DNA of 64,000 nt from Porphyrobacter sp. AAP60 (lineage in GTDB: Bacteria > Pseudomonadota > Alphaproteobacteria > Sphingomonadales > Sphingomonadaceae), in contig NZ_LJHV01000001.1 in NCBI RefSeq assembly GCF_001296025.1, positions 1 to 64,000 on the forward strand, given 5' to 3'. Below, piece by piece: positions 46,177 through 53,512 of the stretch. Below the pieces are notes generated by a model. The model saw nothing but the letters and a program-made list of their open reading frames with translations. It searched no databases and had not been told where the DNA came from. Made by a program: the position numbers and the translations under genes. Every line of letters begins with the position of its first letter. Position 1 is the stretch's first letter.

Positions 46177-46719
46177 ATATCACGTCCACCCCGGCGCTCG
46201 ATGGCCCCGCCCGTAAAAAGCGGCCCTCGTTTTGATAACATGATCAATGTCCCCAAGGTCCGCGTCATCGATGACGAAGGCGAAAACCTTGGCGTGATGT
46301 TCACCCGCGAAGCGATTGAGCAGGCCAATGAAAAGGGCCTGAACCTCGTCGAAGTGTCCCCCAATGCGGACCCGCCGGTGTGCAAGTATCTCGATGTCGG
46401 CAAATTCCGCTACGAAGCGCAGAAGAAGGCCAATCTGGCGCGCAAGACGCAGAAGACGCAGGACATCAAGGAAGTGAAGATGCGCCCGAACATCGACACG
46501 CATGATTATGACGTGAAGATGCGCAACGTCACCAAGTTCATCGAAAACGGCGACAAGGTGAAGATCACCCTGCGGTTCCGCGGGCGTGAAATGGCCCACC
46601 AGCACCTCGGCATGGATCTGCTGCGCAAGGTGCAGGACGATGTCGCCGAAGTCGCCAAGGTCGAAGCCTTCCCGCGGCTTGAAGGCCGCCAGATGCTGAT
46701 GGTGCTGTCGCCCAAATAG
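46177..46719 (+). CDS. infC: Translation initiation factor IF-3, probable AUA start
   Basis: IF-3 prevents premature subunit joining and checks start-codon choice. The body matches the family ([70 protein letters not shown]). The first ATG (46201) has no ribosome site. In frame, eight codons upstream, is ATA 46177 with AGGAG exactly 8 bases before it, giving [22 protein letters not shown] rare start codon is the known autoregulatory device of infC (AUU in Escherichia coli), so I take ATA as the start. A terminator follows the gene, so rpmI and rplT are not adjacent. Confidence 0.93.
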
Positions 46720-46747
46720 GCGCCTTCGCCATGACATCAGCCAAAGG

Positions 46748-46775
46748 GGGGCGGATCGCAAGGTCCGCCCCTTTT
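46748..46775 (+). terminator. Rho-independent terminator of infC
   Basis: GGGGCGGA and TCCGCCCC form an 8-bp GC-rich stem with an 8-base loop, followed directly by TTTT, 29 bp after the infC stop. Confidence 0.85.
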
Positions 46776-46967
46776 GCTTTGGCGATGCTTCGACGAACCG
46801 CTGGGCGGCTCGACAAAGGGTTGATGGAAACCGACTGCGGGCAACATCGTTGGAAAGGTTCATGCTATTGAAATCCTGCGGGGGAAGGCAGGCGGAAGCT
46901 GCGTCCAGACCCCGGCTTGCCTGCGCTTGACCCTGCCTTGACCCCACCCAGGCCCGCGATTGCGGGT

Positions 46968-46983
46968 TGTTTCACGGGAAACA
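46968..46983. promoter_or_regulatory. parS-like site (one mismatch)
   Basis: TGTTTCACGGGAAACA differs from the ParB-binding consensus TGTTTCACGTGAAACA at a single position. It ends 6 bases before the ATG of the first DUF547 gene and covers its ribosome-binding region. A perfect copy lies 5.5 kb away. Confidence 0.65.
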
Positions 46984-46989
46984 TACGCC

Positions 46990-48132
46990 ATGCCGTTCCT
47001 GCCCCGCCCCATTGCCCGCCCCCTGCTGCTTGCCGGTGCCATGCTGGCCGTTGCAGCCCCGGTCTACGCGCAGGACAGCGCCCCGCTCTCCGACGCGCAA
47101 CTGGCCACCTTTGCCCCGTCAAACGCGCCGAATAACGACAAGATCGATTATTCGATCTGGGACGAGGCGATGAAAAACATCGTTATTTCCATGGGCCCAT
47201 CCCTGCGCCAAGGCGCACCCCGCCCTGACCCAAGCATGGGAACCCGCCGCCAGTACGGCCATGTCTCGCGCTACCGGCTCGAAGGCACGCGGGTGATGTT
47301 CAGCTTCCTCGATTCCGACGTGATCGCGAGCTTCACCGAATATCGCAAGGATCTGGAAAACACCGCCGATATCGTTGATATCCAGTCGCTTTCCCGCAAC
47401 GAACAGTTGGCCTACTGGATCAACCTCCACAATGTCGCGATGGTCGAACAGATCGCCAACGCCTGGCCGATCCGGCAACCGCGCGAGATCAAGGTCGGCG
47501 GCGTCCCCCTGGACGAGGCACGCTTTATCACGGTCGAAGGCATCGCGTTGTCCCCGCGCGATATCCGCGAAAAGATCGTCTATCGTCACTGGAAAGATCC
47601 GGTGGTGATGTACGGTTTCTGGCGCGGGGAAATCGGTGGTCCATCGTTGCAGCGCGAAGCCTTCAACGCCGATAATGTCGGGCGCCTGCTGATCCGCGGC
47701 GCGGGCGATTTCGTCAATTCGCTTCGTGGCTCGCAGGAACTCGGCGGCAAGCTGCAAGTGTCTGAACTCTACAAGGAAGCCGCGCCGTTCTTCTTCCCCG
47801 ATTTCGAGAATGATGTCCGCGCCCACCTTGCCCGCTATGCCGATGACAAGACCAGCGCGCTGATCGCCAAGACCGGCAGCATTGATCCCAGCATCACGGA
47901 ACACGATATCGCTGATCTTGAAGGCGGCGTGCGCGAGCCGACCTACCAGAACATCACCTCGAACGGCATTCCCACCAGCTTCCGCATCCCGCAGAGCATG
48001 GCCGCCCTGCTGCGCGAGCGCGAGACCAAGTTCCAGGAGATCATCCGTCAGGGCCGCACCGGCACGGTCACCTTCAGCAACATCACTTTGCCCGATGACC
48101 CCGCCGACAAGGATAAGGACGAGGTGGAGTAA
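46990..48132 (+). CDS. DUF547 exported protein, paralogue 1
   Basis: A 380-residue protein with signal peptide (MPFLPRPIARPLLLAGAMLAVAAPVYA) and a DUF547 domain: SRNEQLAYWINLHNVAMVEQIA, REIKVGGVPLDEARFITVEGIALSPRDIREKIVYRHW and DFVNSLRGSQELGGKL. DUF547 may resemble a transglutaminase/papain-like fold, and the conserved NLHN and YRHW blocks may hold the active site; the biochemical role is unknown. It is followed after 99 bp by a close paralogue. The C-terminus (VTFSNITLPDDP) is conserved between the two. Confidence 0.88.
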   Translation: MPFLPRPIARPLLLAGAMLAVAAPVYAQDSAPLSDAQLATFAPSNAPNNDKIDYSIWDEAMKNIVISMGPSLRQGAPRPDPSMGTRRQYGHVSRYRLEGTRVMFSFLDSDVIASFTEYRKDLENTADIVDIQSLSRNEQLAYWINLHNVAMVEQIANAWPIRQPREIKVGGVPLDEARFITVEGIALSPRDIREKIVYRHWKDPVVMYGFWRGEIGGPSLQREAFNADNVGRLLIRGAGDFVNSLRGSQELGGKLQVSELYKEAAPFFFPDFENDVRAHLARYADDKTSALIAKTGSIDPSITEHDIADLEGGVREPTYQNITSNGIPTSFRIPQSMAALLRERETKFQEIIRQGRTGTVTFSNITLPDDPADKDKDEVE

Positions 48133-48231
48133 CCGCGCCTTTCCCACCTGAACACCTGTTCATCCCCGGTTTATCCGATTGAGATAAAATCGCTTTCGGA
48201 CGGGCCGACTCCATCTGGTGGGAGAGATGAT

Positions 48232-49446
48232 ATGGTGCCGAAATATGTGATTGCTTTGGTCGCGGGCTCCGTTCTGGTGACACCTGCATTGGCATCCGAA
48301 CTGGTAGTGGAACAACCCCGGCCAGCGGATGATCCGGGGCTGCATTACGTTCCGCCTATCAAGGATGCTGCCGCGCAGCAGCGCAGCGTCGACGATCATC
48401 TCGCAGCCTTCGCCCCCACTACCGCTCCGATCCGCCACACCATCGATTACGAAATCTGGGATTGGGCGCTCAAGAACATCCTGATCTCGATGGGCCCATC
48501 GGACCGGCTGAGCGCGCCAAGCCCACCGCCGTTGACCGGCTCACGCCTGAAAAGCGGGCCGCAATCGCGCTATCGGCTGGAAGGCTCGCTCGTGCTGTTC
48601 CGGTTCTTCGATCAGAAGGTCATCGCAAGTTTCTCCGAATACCGTCAGGATCTCGAAAGCGTTGTCGAAACACTCGACATCTCCACACTCCCGCGCAACG
48701 AGCAGCTCGCCTATTGGATCAACCTTCACAACGTCGCCATGATGGAGCAGATCGCCAAGGAATGGCCCGTGCGCGAGCCGCGCGAAATCGCGGTTGACGG
48801 CGTACCGCTTGACCAGGCGAAGTTCATCAACCTGCGCGGCATTCCGGTGTCGCTGCGCGATATCCGCGAGAACATCGTCTATCGCCACTGGAAAAACCCC
48901 AAGGTGATCTATGGTTTCTGGCGCGGCGAGATCGGCGGGCCGCAGTTGCAGTCCTATGCCTTCACGGGGGCGAATGTCACATCGTTGCTGGATGTCGCCG
49001 CGGCCGATTTTGTGAACTCGTTGCGCGGCACCCAGAAGATCCACGGCAAGCTGGCGGTATCGGAGCTCTATGCCGAAGTCGCGCCGTTCTACTTCCCCGA
49101 TTTCGAGAATGATCTGCGCGCGCATCTGGCCGTATATGCCGAAGAGCCTGTGAAAGAACTGATGGCGAAAACCGGTCTGACAGTCGCCACGATCCGGGAG
49201 GCCGACATTGCGGATTTGCACGGCGGTGCCCGTCCACCGGCCTACCTGCTGGTTGATTCGCAGCCGGGCGTGGCCACGGACCAGCCGGTCTGCAACTCAC
49301 GGTGGGGGCAGGCTGCGTGCGATCTGCTGGTTGCCCGTTCGAGAAAGCTGCAACGCATGAAGCGCCGCGATCAGCCGATCTCGCGGGTGTTCTTCTCGAA
49401 CATCGATCTGCCCGGCGATCCGCCGAACAAGAACGCCGTCGAATAG
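48232..49446 (+). CDS. DUF547 exported protein, paralogue 2
   Basis: A 404-residue protein with signal peptide (MVPKYVIALVAGSVLVTPALA). It is strongly similar along its length to the preceding gene: IDYEIWDWALKNILISMGPS, LPRNEQLAYWINLHNVAMMEQIAKEW, RDIRENIVYRHWKNPKVIYGFWRGEIGGP and FSNIDLPGDP. It differs by an extra N-terminal segment and a C-terminal insert with two cysteines (PVCNSRWGQAACDLL) that could form a disulfide. GGGAGAG precedes the ATG. Tandem duplication with later divergence is clear; function unknown. Confidence 0.88.
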   Translation: MVPKYVIALVAGSVLVTPALASELVVEQPRPADDPGLHYVPPIKDAAAQQRSVDDHLAAFAPTTAPIRHTIDYEIWDWALKNILISMGPSDRLSAPSPPPLTGSRLKSGPQSRYRLEGSLVLFRFFDQKVIASFSEYRQDLESVVETLDISTLPRNEQLAYWINLHNVAMMEQIAKEWPVREPREIAVDGVPLDQAKFINLRGIPVSLRDIRENIVYRHWKNPKVIYGFWRGEIGGPQLQSYAFTGANVTSLLDVAAADFVNSLRGTQKIHGKLAVSELYAEVAPFYFPDFENDLRAHLAVYAEEPVKELMAKTGLTVATIREADIADLHGGARPPAYLLVDSQPGVATDQPVCNSRWGQAACDLLVARSRKLQRMKRRDQPISRVFFSNIDLPGDPPNKNAVE

Positions 49447-49537
49447 CTTTTCGTCTGGCGCGCGGCCCGCGTGGGGTTGCCGCCAGCCATTCCCGGCTGT
49501 TACGTCCGCGCATAATGGCGGGGGACGATCAGATCTT

Positions 49538-50962
49538 ATGACAGCGCGTGCAATCGGCCTGATCCTCGGCCCCCTTGCGTTTGCACTGACAGCATTGGTG
49601 CCGCCACCCGGAGCCATGCCTGCATCCGCGTGGCTGGTGGCGGGACTGGTGCTGTGGATGGCCGCGTGGTGGATGACCGAGGCGGTGCCGCTGGCCGTAA
49701 CGGCGCTGCTGCCCTTTGTGGTGCTGCCGCTGGCCGGGGTATCGACGGCGAATGAAACGGCCGGCGACTACTATTCCCCGATCCTGTTCCTGCTGCTGGG
49801 CGGAGCCTTCGTCGCCCTTGCCATCGAACGCACCGGGCTGCACCGGCGGCTGAGCCTGGCGATCCTGCGCGGTGTGGGCGCGCATGGCGGTCCGGCGCGC
49901 TTGCTGCTGGCCTTCATGATTGCAGCGGCGCTGCTTTCCATGCTGATTTCCAATACCTCGACCTCGCTGATCATGATGCCGATGGCGCTGGCGGTGCTCG
50001 AAGGGGGGCTCGGCAAGAGCGCGGAGGGCGCCCCGCCCCGACAGGAAGGCATTGCGGGCGCTCTTCCCATGGGCATCGCTTTTGCGGCCAGCATCGGCGG
50101 GCTGGGCACCATCGTCGGATCGCCCACCAATGCGATTGCAGTCGGCCTGCTGGACGAGATCGCGGGCGTGCGGATCAGCTTTATCGAATGGTCGCTTTAT
50201 GGTGTGCCGGTGGTGGTTCTGGGCATACCGCTGGCGGCGTGGATCGTGGCGCGGGTGCAGCGAGTGGGCGCATACACTTTCGATGTCGCCGCTGCACGGG
50301 CCGCAATTGCCAGCCATTCCCGCTGGAGCGCGCCAGAAGCGCGGCTGTCGCTGATCGTGGCGCTGACCTTCATCGGCTGGGTCACGCAGCCGCTGGTCGC
50401 TCCCCTGCTTCCCGACGGTTCATGGACCGATGGCACCATCGCGGTGATCGCGGCGCTGGCATTGTTCCTGATCCCCGATGGCACGGGCCGTCCGCTGCTG
50501 GTGTGGAAAGAGGCCGATCGCGCGCCGTGGGGTGTGATTTTCATGTTCGGCGGCGGGCTGGCGCTGGCGGGCGGGATGCAGGCTTCGGGCCTTGCCGATT
50601 GGGTCGGGCAGGCGCTGCTACCGCTGGAAAACTGGCCGTTGCTTCTGGTCGCAGTCGCCGTGGTCGCGCTGGTGATCGTGGTGACCGAATTCGCCAGCAA
50701 TGTCGCCACTGCAACGGGGATCATCCCGGTCGTCGCCGCGCTGGTGGTGGCATTGGGGGCCGATCCGGTGCTGCTTGCCCTGCCCGCCGCGCTGGCGGCC
50801 AGCTGGGGCTTCATGTTGCCCGCCGGCACCGGGCCGAACGCCATCGCATGGGCCACAGGGCGCATCCGGATCGACCGGATGATTACGGCCGGCGCGCTGC
50901 TTGATGTGGCGGGAATCGCGCTGATTATCGGCGTGGTATGGGTGATCGCGGCGATCACCTGA
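49538..50962 (+). CDS. SLC13/DASS family anion transporter
   Basis: A 474-residue membrane protein with 11-12 helices. The two helix-hairpin SNT-type motifs of the divalent anion:Na+ symporter family are visible (MLISNTSTSLIMMPMALA and EFASNVATATGIIPVVAAL), with SIGGLGTIVGSPTNAIAVG after the first and LPAGTGPNAIAWATG near the end. Members import C4/C5 dicarboxylates such as succinate with Na+. It is a single-gene unit between the DUF547 pair and the PLP enzyme. Confidence 0.93.
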   Translation: MTARAIGLILGPLAFALTALVPPPGAMPASAWLVAGLVLWMAAWWMTEAVPLAVTALLPFVVLPLAGVSTANETAGDYYSPILFLLLGGAFVALAIERTGLHRRLSLAILRGVGAHGGPARLLLAFMIAAALLSMLISNTSTSLIMMPMALAVLEGGLGKSAEGAPPRQEGIAGALPMGIAFAASIGGLGTIVGSPTNAIAVGLLDEIAGVRISFIEWSLYGVPVVVLGIPLAAWIVARVQRVGAYTFDVAAARAAIASHSRWSAPEARLSLIVALTFIGWVTQPLVAPLLPDGSWTDGTIAVIAALALFLIPDGTGRPLLVWKEADRAPWGVIFMFGGGLALAGGMQASGLADWVGQALLPLENWPLLLVAVAVVALVIVVTEFASNVATATGIIPVVAALVVALGADPVLLALPAALAASWGFMLPAGTGPNAIAWATGRIRIDRMITAGALLDVAGIALIIGVVWVIAAIT

Positions 50963-51059
50963 GGTTTCATGCAGACTGTCTGAAACTGCGGTTGCAGCGC
51001 TTGCCACGCTGCGCGCCCGGCGATAATCGCGACCCATTCCAGCGGCGGCTGCGGAGAGG

Positions 51060-51139
51060 CGTTCCTGCGGAGGTTAGGAACGGGTGCCCTGCCCGCTGCG
51101 ACTGGCCCCCGCCTTCCTGGGGGCATATGTCTTGGAAGG
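51060..51139 (+). promoter_or_regulatory. Structured leader with possible SD-sequestering pseudoknot
   Basis: Two hairpins precede the PLP-enzyme gene. The first is CGTTCCT/AGGAACG (51060-51066 and 51076-51082). The second is GCCCCC/GGGGGC (51105-51110 and 51119-51124), with loop GCCTTCCT. CCTTCC of that loop (51112-51117) is perfectly complementary to GGAAGG (51134-51139), the Shine-Dalgarno of the gene, giving an H-type pseudoknot (6-bp stems, loops of 1, 1 and 9 bases). I see no SAM-II consensus core. Confidence 0.45.
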
Positions 51140-51149
51140 ACAATCTGTC

Positions 51150-52463
51150 ATGACCGACGCTGTCGATGCAACTGACACCCCCACGCCGCGCCGCAAACCC
51201 AAACCCGGCATCCGTGAAATCGGCGGTCGGCCGCTGAAACCGTCCACCCTGATGATGGGCCACGGCTATGACCCGGTCTTGTCCGAAGGATCGCTGAAGG
51301 CCCCGATCTTCCTTACATCGACCTTCGCGTTTGAAAGCGCGGCGGCGGGCAAGCGCCATTTCGAAGGCATTACCGGCCTGCGTGAAGGCGGCGCGGAAGG
51401 CCTTGTCTATTCACGTTTCAACGGCCCCAATCAGGAAATCTTGGAAGACCGGCTCGCCGTGTGGGACGGGGCCGAAGATGCGCTGGCCTTCAGCAGCGGG
51501 ATGACCGCGATCTGCGTGCTGATGATGGCCTATGCCAACCAGAACGACGTGATCGTCCATTCCGGCCCGCTTTATGCCGCATCGGAAGGGTTCGTCGCCA
51601 AGGTGCTGAGCCGTTTCGGCGTCACCTATGTCGATTTCCCCGCCGGGGCGACCCGCGCCGATCTGGACGCGGCGCTGGAAAAGGCCAGGCGCCAGGCCGA
51701 GGCACAGGGCGGCAAGGTAGCGATGATCTACCTCGAAAGCCCCGCCAACCCGACCAATGCGCTGGTCGATGTCGAGGCGGTGCGCGATGCGCGCGATGCC
51801 CATCTGGCGGATACCCCGATCGCCATCGACAACACCTTCCTTGGCCCGCTGTGGTCGCGCCCGCTGGAACATGGCGCGGACATCGTCGCCTATTCGCTGA
51901 CCAAATATGTCGGCGGCCATTCCGATCTGGTTGCGGGCAGCCTTGCGGGTGCGAAGCGCTGGATGGACCCGGTGCGGGCGCTGCGCAACACCATGGGCGG
52001 GATCGTCGATCCCAATACCGCGTGGATGCTGCTGCGGTCGCTGGAAACGGTCGAACTCAGGATGCAGCGCGCAGGCGAGAATGCGGCGAAGGTGTGCGAA
52101 TTCCTGCGCGGTCATCCCAAGGTCGAAGGGCTGGGCTACCTCGGATTTATCGAAGACCCGCGGCAGCGCGACATCTATGATCGCCACTGCCTTGGGGCCG
52201 GATCGACCTTCTCCCTATTCATCAAGGGCGGCGAGGCGGAGAGTTTCGCATTCCTCGATCACCTGACCATCGCCAAGCTGGCGGTCAGCCTTGGCGGGAC
52301 GGAAACGCTGGCAAGCCACCCGGCTTCGATGACCCACCTTTCGGTGCCGCAGGCGCGCAAGGATCTGCTGGGGATCACCGATAATCTGGTGCGCATCAGC
52401 GTCGGGATCGAGGATGCCGATGATCTGATCGCCGATTTTGCCCAGGCGCTGGATCATGTGTGA
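51150..52463 (+). CDS. Cystathionine gamma-synthase/methionine gamma-lyase family PLP enzyme
   Basis: A 437-residue Cys/Met-metabolism PLP enzyme. The PLP lysine lies in YSLTKYVGGHSDLVAG. Other landmarks are YSRFNGPNQEILEDRLA, LAFSSGMTAI, YLESPANPT, IAIDNTFLGPLWSRPLEHGADI and LGGTETLASHPASMTH. The N-terminal 40 residues are an extension with Pro and Lys. It may be O-succinyl/acetylhomoserine sulfhydrylase, cystathionine synthase or gamma-lyase; the family does not separate these by eye. GGAAGGA lies about 10 bases before ATG 51150 and is the partner of the putative pseudoknot. Confidence 0.9.
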   Translation: MTDAVDATDTPTPRRKPKPGIREIGGRPLKPSTLMMGHGYDPVLSEGSLKAPIFLTSTFAFESAAAGKRHFEGITGLREGGAEGLVYSRFNGPNQEILEDRLAVWDGAEDALAFSSGMTAICVLMMAYANQNDVIVHSGPLYAASEGFVAKVLSRFGVTYVDFPAGATRADLDAALEKARRQAEAQGGKVAMIYLESPANPTNALVDVEAVRDARDAHLADTPIAIDNTFLGPLWSRPLEHGADIVAYSLTKYVGGHSDLVAGSLAGAKRWMDPVRALRNTMGGIVDPNTAWMLLRSLETVELRMQRAGENAAKVCEFLRGHPKVEGLGYLGFIEDPRQRDIYDRHCLGAGSTFSLFIKGGEAESFAFLDHLTIAKLAVSLGGTETLASHPASMTHLSVPQARKDLLGITDNLVRISVGIEDADDLIADFAQALDHV

Positions 52464-52467
52464 GACC

Positions 52468-52495
52468 CGCCAATGTTTCACGTGAAACATTGGCG
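52468..52495. promoter_or_regulatory. parS centromere site (perfect)
   Basis: The 16-bp core TGTTTCACGTGAAACA (52474-52489) is identical to the ParB-binding parS consensus. It is embedded in a 28-bp perfect palindrome with flanks CGCCAA and TTGGCG. It begins 5 bases after the stop of the PLP-enzyme gene. ParB spreading from parS organises and segregates origin-proximal DNA, so this marks the origin region of the replicon. Confidence 0.92.
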
Positions 52496-52515
52496 AAGCG
52501 GGAGGCAAGGCGAGG

Positions 52516-52560
52516 CTAGAAGGGGTCTAGAGGGGGTCTAGACGCGGCTAACGGGGGTCT
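52516..52560. repeat. CTAG-rich short repeats next to parS
   Basis: Units of GGGGTCTAG/GGGGGTCTAG occur back to back, and a degenerate GGGGGTCTG follows. CTAG, normally rare in bacterial DNA, occurs at 52516, 52527 and 52538, and again at 52640. Confidence 0.55.
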
Positions 52561-52629
52561 GGATGGGCCTGAACCGGGCAAAAAACCCGCCGGGCCTCCG
52601 CGCCGCGCAAAAATCCCAGTCGATTATTT

Positions 52630-52661
52630 CCCTCACCTGCTAGATCACAGGCAGGTGAGGG
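52630..52661 (+). promoter_or_regulatory. Long hairpin covering the ribosome site of the SDR gene
   Basis: CCCTCACCTGC and GCAGGTGAGGG are perfect 11-bp arms with a 10-base loop. The 3' arm contains AGGTGAGGGG, the only Shine-Dalgarno candidate for the ATG at 52673, so folding would hide it. This suggests translational control, or less likely a DNA operator. Confidence 0.5.
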
Positions 52662-52672
52662 GAAAAGCCAGC

Positions 52673-53512
52673 ATGACAGACAGCCGCAAACCCGTTTTCC
52701 TTGTGATCGGTGCAGGCGCCGGGATCGGCGGCAATGCCGCGCTGCGCTTTGCCGCAGGGGGCTATCACTCCGTCCTCGCCCGCCGCAGTGACGAGGACGG
52801 TCTGGCACGGCTGGTGGGGGAAATCGAGGCGGCGGGCGGATCGGCCAGCGGCACCCTGCTCAACGCCGCAGAGGATGGCGCGATCGAGGAACTGGTCGCC
52901 CGCACCGAAGCCGATATCGGCCCCGTCCACTGCGCGCTCTACAACCTTGGCGCGCAGATCGGGAACCGCGCCCTGCCCGATACCCCGCACCGGATCTTCG
53001 AACTCGGCTGGCGGCTTGGCACCTATGGCGTGTTCCGGCTCGCCCACGCGCTGTTTCCGGCGATGGTGGAGCGGGCGAAGACCGGCGCGCATGGCACATT
53101 GCTGGTCACGTCAGCCACCGCAGCCGTGCGCGGCAATGCCGGCCAGCACAGCCATGCCGCAGCCATGGGAGGACGGCGGATGCTGTGCCAGACCCTGAAT
53201 GCCGAATTCGCCCCGCAAGGCGTTCACGTTGCACACGTCGTGGTCGATGGCGCGGTCGATGCCCCCGATACGCTGGGCAAGCTGCTGGGCGACAAGTTTG
53301 AAGGCTTCAAGGCAGGCAAGGGCCGCGACGGGGTGATCGATCCCGCCGCGCTCGCCGAAACCTACTGGCACCTCGCCCACCAGCCGCGCAATTGCTGGAG
53401 CCACGAGGTCGACGTGCGCCCGTGGACCGACGTGCCATGGTGGAACGACAACCCCGACCCGCAAATCGACAGCCGCGGCAAGGGGTTTGCGGGGCCGCGT
53501 GACGGGGACTGA
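52673..53512 (+). CDS. SDR-fold protein lacking the catalytic Tyr-x3-Lys
   Basis: A 279-residue short-chain dehydrogenase/reductase fold. The nucleotide-binding motif VIGAGAGIGG and the NxG-type YNLGAQIG are present, but where YxxxK should be the sequence reads QHSHAAAMGG: Tyr is His and Lys is Met. The preceding Ser (VTSATAA) is kept. It may use other chemistry, act as a binding protein, or belong to the atypical subgroup ending AHVVVDGAVDAP. GTG 52655 is an alternative start. Its ribosome site is inside an 11-bp hairpin. Confidence 0.85.
   Translation: MTDSRKPVFLVIGAGAGIGGNAALRFAAGGYHSVLARRSDEDGLARLVGEIEAAGGSASGTLLNAAEDGAIEELVARTEADIGPVHCALYNLGAQIGNRALPDTPHRIFELGWRLGTYGVFRLAHALFPAMVERAKTGAHGTLLVTSATAAVRGNAGQHSHAAAMGGRRMLCQTLNAEFAPQGVHVAHVVVDGAVDAPDTLGKLLGDKFEGFKAGKGRDGVIDPAALAETYWHLAHQPRNCWSHEVDVRPWTDVPWWNDNPDPQIDSRGKGFAGPRDGD

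Follow-up and report, generated by a model that had tools for sequence, protein, structure and literature searches.

The presence of two parS-like sequences within 6 kb of each other in DNA of Porphyrobacter sp. AAP60 raises the question of whether they mark an origin-proximal segment of the chromosome, as a previous reading made from the sequence alone had proposed, or whether they belong to another kind of system. The window, i.e. the whole stretch of DNA that was analysed (64,000 nucleotides of contig C1), was searched for parS with up to three mismatches allowed, and the sites at 52474 and 46968 were the only matches. The exact 16-mer at 52474 is enclosed in a perfect 28-bp palindrome and the second site differs from it by one base, both as described by the sequence-only reading. 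Its statement that two such sites exceed chance is also borne out, since dinucleotide shuffles of the window contained 0.11 matches on average and at least two matches occurred in 1 of 100 shuffles. The weaker site had been said to overlap the ribosome-binding region of a gene coding for a DUF547 protein, and indeed 6 bp separate its end from the start codon (ATG) at 46990. This overlap is unusual among the elements described below, the majority of which sit at gene ends, as does the exact site, which is found 10 bp behind the stop codon of the PLP-dependent enzyme gene. The DUF547 gene beginning right behind the one-mismatch parS is the first of a tandem pair of DUF547 genes (46990-49446). 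The features of both loci are collected in Table 1.

Table 1. Positions, strands and properties of the features at the two parS sites of the window.
Feature	Position in the window	Strand	Remarks
Exact parS core TGTTTCACGTGAAACA, 16 bp	52474..52489	.	1 of 52 genome copies
Perfect 28-bp palindrome enclosing the exact core	52468..52495	.	Read from the window sequence
One-sided array beside the 52474 site	52500..52575	+	G-rich on the + strand
parS core TGTTTCACGGGAAACA, one mismatch (central T to G)	46968..46983	.	
One-sided array of the 46968 site	46902..46957	-	G-rich on the - strand
DUF547 gene	46990..48132	+	PF04784; start just after the weaker site, outside the element
Cys/Met metabolism PLP-dependent enzyme gene	51084..52463	+	PF01053; start approximate

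The genome from which the window comes (G000; 3.25 Mb, 30 contigs) contains 52 exact copies of TGTTTCACGTGAAACA, 7 of them clustered at parAB and the other 45 scattered over 17 contigs. The number of sites rises to 54 when the fifth base is allowed to be T or C and its partner A or G, and to 58 within two mismatches; the small difference between 58 and 52 indicates that decayed copies are few. The variant TGTTCCACGTGGAACA, with a TTCC core, has no copy in G000. The only ParB_N gene found lies at about 446 kb on contig C29, and the seven exact origin sites follow at 447.2-452.1 kb of this contig: two in an ORF assigned to gidB from its position, one in gidA, three between gidA and trmE and one in a dienelactone-hydrolase ORF. 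In the gidA-trmE gap (L052:9757-9854), the three exact parS are spaced at 41 bp.

These results uphold the parS-type identity of the window sites and contradict the proposed marking of an origin-proximal segment. The sites carry the 16-bp consensus and are not confined to an origin domain, and the length of C29 (727,934 bp) puts a distance of about 282 kb or more between parAB and the window. The observed scatter of parS-like sites over the genome is of the kind that the sequence-only reading had itself named as a refutation. The sign of the GC skew flips near 48-50 kb, close to the sites, then reverts near 60 kb in step with gene strand, and thus gives no lasting switch of the origin type. 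An origin-marking role of the two window sites was rejected on account of the dispersed sites and of the location of parAB on another contig.

Inspection of the dispersed sites revealed, at most of them, a composite anatomy in which the parS core is flanked, on one side, by an array of degenerate units with a consensus of about GGGGTCTAGA and with CTAG, CTGG, CTAA or CAAG as cores. These cores start near +5, +16, +27, +37.5, +48, +59, +69.5 and +80 from the parS edge, a period of about 10.67 bp; one turn of B-DNA is about 10.5 bp. In the window, the unit cores are at +16, +26, +37, +48, +58, +69 and +79 beside the exact site and at +16, +27, +38, +48 and +59 beside the weaker one. With one phase value taken per element, the register of the array with parS gave R values of 0.91 in G000 (38 elements) and 0.85 in the related genome G177 (40 elements); the side of the array was picked by a chain score favouring 10- or 11-bp spacing, and it is the period, not the register with parS, that this choice partly builds in. 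As an independent check, a scan accepted any gap of 20-50 bases, and 80 loci were read from the matches listed in this all-genome search. All the 75 Erythrobacter-like loci among them have gaps of 20-23, 32-34 or 42-44 bases, and of the five unrelated loci three fall inside these classes and two (L094 and L120) outside.

Arrays scored above threshold at 40 of the 46 dispersed sites of G000 (the 45 exact ones plus 46968, both window sites being thus counted) and at 41 of 45 in G177, as compared to 5 of 860 random positions; the weights of the units and the score threshold (20) were chosen after the elements had been seen. The array was always on one side and never on both sides of the same parS, and the origin sites are array-free in both genomes (7 of 7 in each). 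The later scoring detected no array at L019, L023, L024, L049, L050 and L055, and an earlier and stricter one none at L014, L024, L025, L049 and L055; owing to this disagreement, the array count is uncertain by a few and chance may account for one or two arrays among the 40. CTAG occurs at a density of 19.2 per kb in arrays and 0.32 in flanks, a ratio of about 60. Arrays in the same register, often made of CTGG units, were seen at four of four loci in G218 and three of four in G163, and scores are weak in some expanded genomes (26, 23, 17 and 10 in G154; 37, 20, 12 and 9 in G225).

The spacers and the palindrome arms vary from copy to copy. Palindromes of at least 26 bp surround 10 of the 45 dispersed exact sites of G000, for a mean of 1.5 and a maximum of 7 with shuffled arms, which indicates that at some of the sites the arm extension is genuine. 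An exact parS is missing from seven of the 28 array loci of G000. Loci at which the array has no intact parS alongside are L061-L067 in G000 and L071, L076 and L080 in G177. In L065, a decayed parS occupies the expected place. In L061 it lies at the far end, as does the decayed core of L071, and these two loci seem to correspond to each other between the two genomes.

The 46 sites are distributed between 25 convergent, 10 tandem and 4 divergent gaps, 6 ORF calls and 1 contig edge. When the intragenic and contig-edge sites were left out, 25 of 39 sites were in convergent gaps, compared to 6 of the 60 background gaps of at least 60 bp at the same loci (Fisher p 2e-8); in the window, 2 of 31 background gaps are convergent. 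The genes were called by a simple hexamer finder, with uncertain starts and some genes missed. In 15 of the 22 oriented convergent cases, a stop codon is found within 1-30 bp of parS and the array lies toward the opposing gene, and in tandem pairs the array points with transcription in 4 cases and against it in 6. The side of the array showed no bias between the replication arms of G177 (22 toward ter, 18 toward ori, with parAB taken as the origin and the terminus assumed opposite to it), which makes a KOPS-like pointer unlikely. The sites surround the whole chromosome in G177 and G163, and the quarter farthest from parAB contains 10 of 45 and 6 of 45 of them, respectively. Their gaps are somewhat more even than random in G177 (CV 0.71, P 0.008) and not more even than random in G163 (CV 1.06, P 0.78).

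The number of sites was then compared between genomes. Among 114 genomes of the Erythrobacter/Porphyrobacter genus, the two symmetric core variants taken together range from 0 to 60 sites per genome, with 0-4 sites in 66 genomes, at least 7 in 45 and at least 30 in 10. At least three array hits were obtained in none of the 66 genomes with 0-4 parS and in all the 10 with at least 30. Hybrid cores are numerous in several genomes having smaller sets (e.g. G154, G155 and G217), and the core rule is therefore not strict everywhere. In an order-wide sample of 297 genomes, none of the 269 outside the genus exceeded 7 sites. A class-wide sample of 289 genomes gave at least 8 sites in 7 of the 284 outside the family, with 18 and 13 matches in G638 and G629, which could be independent expansions, and a top value of 79 in G652.

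The latter, a 1.8-Mb alphaproteobacterial genome, was rejected as an independent expansion on the basis of the 400 kb read (L266-L285). There, its 23 matches stand in tandem among variable-centre hairpins (TGTTTCACGAGAAACA, TGTTTCGCGCGAAACA and others) with T runs, no phased array could be seen by eye, and the family is a different, terminator-like one. In the all-genome scan, the pattern of which itself required one array unit, 94 of the 100 matches listed are, by title, Erythrobacter-like or alphaproteobacterial/Sphingomonadales, and 92 of these 94 have an array beside parS; the records named among them include Erythrobacter sp. WG, Erythrobacter colymbi and Porphyrobacter MAGs. Five of the other six matches listed have no array. 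The sixth, L176 (JADEWQ010000091.1), labelled as a Pleurocapsales cyanobacterium, bears the composite element, has a GC content of 62% and probably represents Erythrobacter DNA contaminating a cyanobacterial assembly. Among the matches listed, the occurrence of the element in other phyla was rejected on these grounds.

The comparison with G177, a single contig of 2,979,257 bp, shows how the core behaves between species. This genome has no TTTC site and 52 TTCC sites (TGTTCC instead of TGTTTC), again divided into 7 at the parAB locus and 45 elsewhere, and its arrays keep the register of those in G000. Eight further sites have one mismatch, three of which are hybrids of the two cores, one being located at parAB. 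Flank alignment, restricted to the exact sites, identified 26 orthologous site pairs between G000 and G177 after 6 of 32 pairs had been dropped because the element only was matched (L017-L072, L021-L074, L021-L073, L031-L200, L039-L211 and window-L200). The flanking DNA at these 26 positions is mostly 70-88% identical, and the array is on the same side in the 21 of 21 pairs having two arrays. In the two species contrasted in full, the dispersed core is thus identical to the origin core and changes with it.

In a ParB tree, the proteins of 16 expanded genomes were separated from those of 14 unexpanded genomes with a support of 1.000. The G177 ParB is nested among those of TTTC species (0.92 with G000 and G182, the other inner nodes being weak), suggesting that the whole G177 site set probably switched its core after the expansion. 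The simplest cause of such a set-wide switch would be a single ParB preferring one core, gene conversion among the copies being possible as well. ParB has the canonical domains ParB_N, HTH_ParB and ParB_C and retains R173 and G201, which are described as absolutely conserved in ParB (PMC7383237). The recognition helix of ParB is not the same in the two groups. With Caulobacter numbering, placed by aligning ParB with its Caulobacter counterpart (6t1f), 15 of 16 expanded genomes and 0 of 14 unexpanded ones have M at residue 179. At residue 180, M is found in 14 of 16 expanded genomes, the exceptions being G182 (Q) and G177 (H), and Q in 13 of 14 unexpanded genomes. Position 179 is one of the four used for converting ParB to Noc specificity and is reported to tolerate 17 amino acids in parS-specific variants (PMC7383237); a change at this position need not, therefore, alter specificity. 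As G182 combines TTTC with Q180, the core is not set by residue 180 on its own. The evidence that the dispersed sites are read by ParB is comparative and amounts to a correlation, short of proof. For G173, which has 16 sites, no ParB match was obtained at E 1e-60.

The parAB region was also compared. An extra gene at this locus was considered and rejected, the order of the 12 ORFs compared being shared by G177 and the unexpanded relatives G041 and G121, with no match for o1 and o2 in the G177 stretch, for o11 in G041 and for o2 and o11 in G121. Each of G000 and G177 has 7 exact sites in its origin cluster, versus 3 parS-like sites in the stretches read of the unexpanded G041 and G121.

The observed numbers, exactness, register, placement, orthology and between-species co-variation of the sites are compatible with a model in which the two window sites would be two of about 45 dispersed ParB docking stations. 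Each station would consist of a full parS core, read by the single chromosomal ParB, and of the one-sided array, the units of which, recurring every ~10.67 bp in the parS register, would offer contacts on one face of the helix. On the basis of sequence comparison, the dispersed sites are very probably recognised by ParB, which would be loaded at the stations chromosome-wide in addition to the seven array-free origin sites. The array rather probably has a binding partner, and a nucleoid protein or a topoisomerase binding or wrapping it would form a one-sided wall. Dispersed parS are reported to be harmful in known species (PMC5815017, PMC5098823). With the stations at gene ends, mostly convergent, the ParB clamp could be kept local by the wall at one flank and by transcription arriving from the opposite flank, and the stations might organise the nucleoid, through SMC loading, topology or ParB retention, without becoming rival centromeres. 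The six of 46 dispersed G000 sites lacking an array, the array loci devoid of an exact parS, the weak arrays of G154 and G225, the hybrid cores of several smaller sets and the reported harm of dispersed parS are counterpoints to this insulated-station model, for and against which, as a whole, we hold the chances to be evenly balanced.

REP/BIME elements bind gyrase and are placed at gene ends, and the stations could be similar topology elements, at which gyrase-type wrapping of the array would remove positive supercoils between convergent genes, the palindrome being secondary or recruiting ParB/SMC. The convergent placement and the array period of about 10.67 bp are in agreement with this explanation, and TA-containing CTAG steps alternating with G runs would favour bending. 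Gyrase gives, however, no account of a strict core that is that of the origin parS and has co-changed with it in G177, and the restriction of the G run to one strand is not required by wrapping alone; we consider the explanation unlikely. The proximity to stop codons, with the palindrome 1-30 bp past the stop in 15 of the 22 oriented convergent cases, and a stably folding window site (z -3.8) would suit bidirectional terminators or 3'-end stabilisers, whose hairpin would carry the parS core by accident. That the core tracks the origin parS between species and that the array is in helical register with parS argue against such an accident, as do the mixed direction in tandem pairs and the lack of a T run and of a terminator call at either window site (scan of 46700-52700), and a terminator function is quite improbable.

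Dozens of dispersed sites are also what is seen with Noc, which has about 70 sites in Bacillus subtilis, and ParB spread along the chromosome could block division over the DNA, via MipZ or directly. This kind of nucleoid occlusion is very unlikely here: one ParB_N match and no second ParB/Noc paralogue were found at E 0.001 or better, ParB retains the KPRRLGRGLGALLG peptide at its start, and the sites persist in the quarter farthest from parAB in both G177 and G163, whereas Noc sites are not known from the part of the chromosome farthest from the origin (terminus region). Finally, a copy number of 0 to 60 within a genus, together with the different parS-like repeat family of G652, could point to a mobile or decaying repeat family that captured the parS core and has no function for the cell. 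Such a family would hardly keep 26 orthologous positions while the whole set changed its core variant, and its copies should not differ in spacers and palindrome arms or include so few near misses; we find it the hardest of these alternatives to credit.

Returning to the candidate ParB stations, dozens of parS occur naturally all along the chromosome, and at least 26 of their positions are kept between two species. The set makes testable the harm of dispersed parS, its insulation, and the roles of ParB and SMC away from the origin, and the comparison of G000 with G177 offers a natural experiment on how protein and DNA co-evolve over about 50 sites. It may be, although we lean slightly to the other side, that an alphaproteobacterial clade turned its centromere into a chromosome-wide system, in which about 45 conserved composite stations would couple ParB loading, in helical register, to a partner binding the array, with ParB as a general chromosome organiser, a matching change in the recognition helix of ParB and, later, a change of the whole DNA code in one species. 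Among the papers listed from the open-access literature (titles and starts of abstracts), no prior description of dispersed parS with phased arrays was found.

The stations share with the chromosomal parS of ParABS systems the 16-bp core and a cognate ParB with canonical domains. Known parS are described as being mostly restricted to the origin-centred 20% of the chromosome (PMC7022226) and as numbering at most 20-23 near it (PMC7333895), and transposon studies in Caulobacter and Pseudomonas are reported to limit parS to about 500 and 650 kb, respectively, around the native site or origin (PMC5815017, PMC5098823), whereas here about 45 occur all around the chromosome and are accompanied by a phased array. 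Genome-scattered sites, candidate ParB sites in our case, are common to the half-parS of Pseudomonas aeruginosa, where they possibly hold ParB on the nucleoid; half-parS are, however, described as heptamers (PMC10419367), and the present sites are full 16-bp palindromes, positionally orthologous and provided with arrays. Dozens of dispersed sites of the ParB family, candidate ones here, are likewise shared with the Noc system of Firmicutes, in which Noc is presented as a ParB paralogue reading other site bases (PMC7333895), while the present system would use the sole ParB found and true parS, with sites reaching the region farthest from parAB. As REP/BIME elements, described as multicopy extragenic palindromes (PMC3733652, PMC2817692), the stations are multicopy and mostly extragenic, 6 of the 46 being inside ORF calls; they differ from them by flanks that are not mutual copies and by a core that is the centromere site itself and changes with it.
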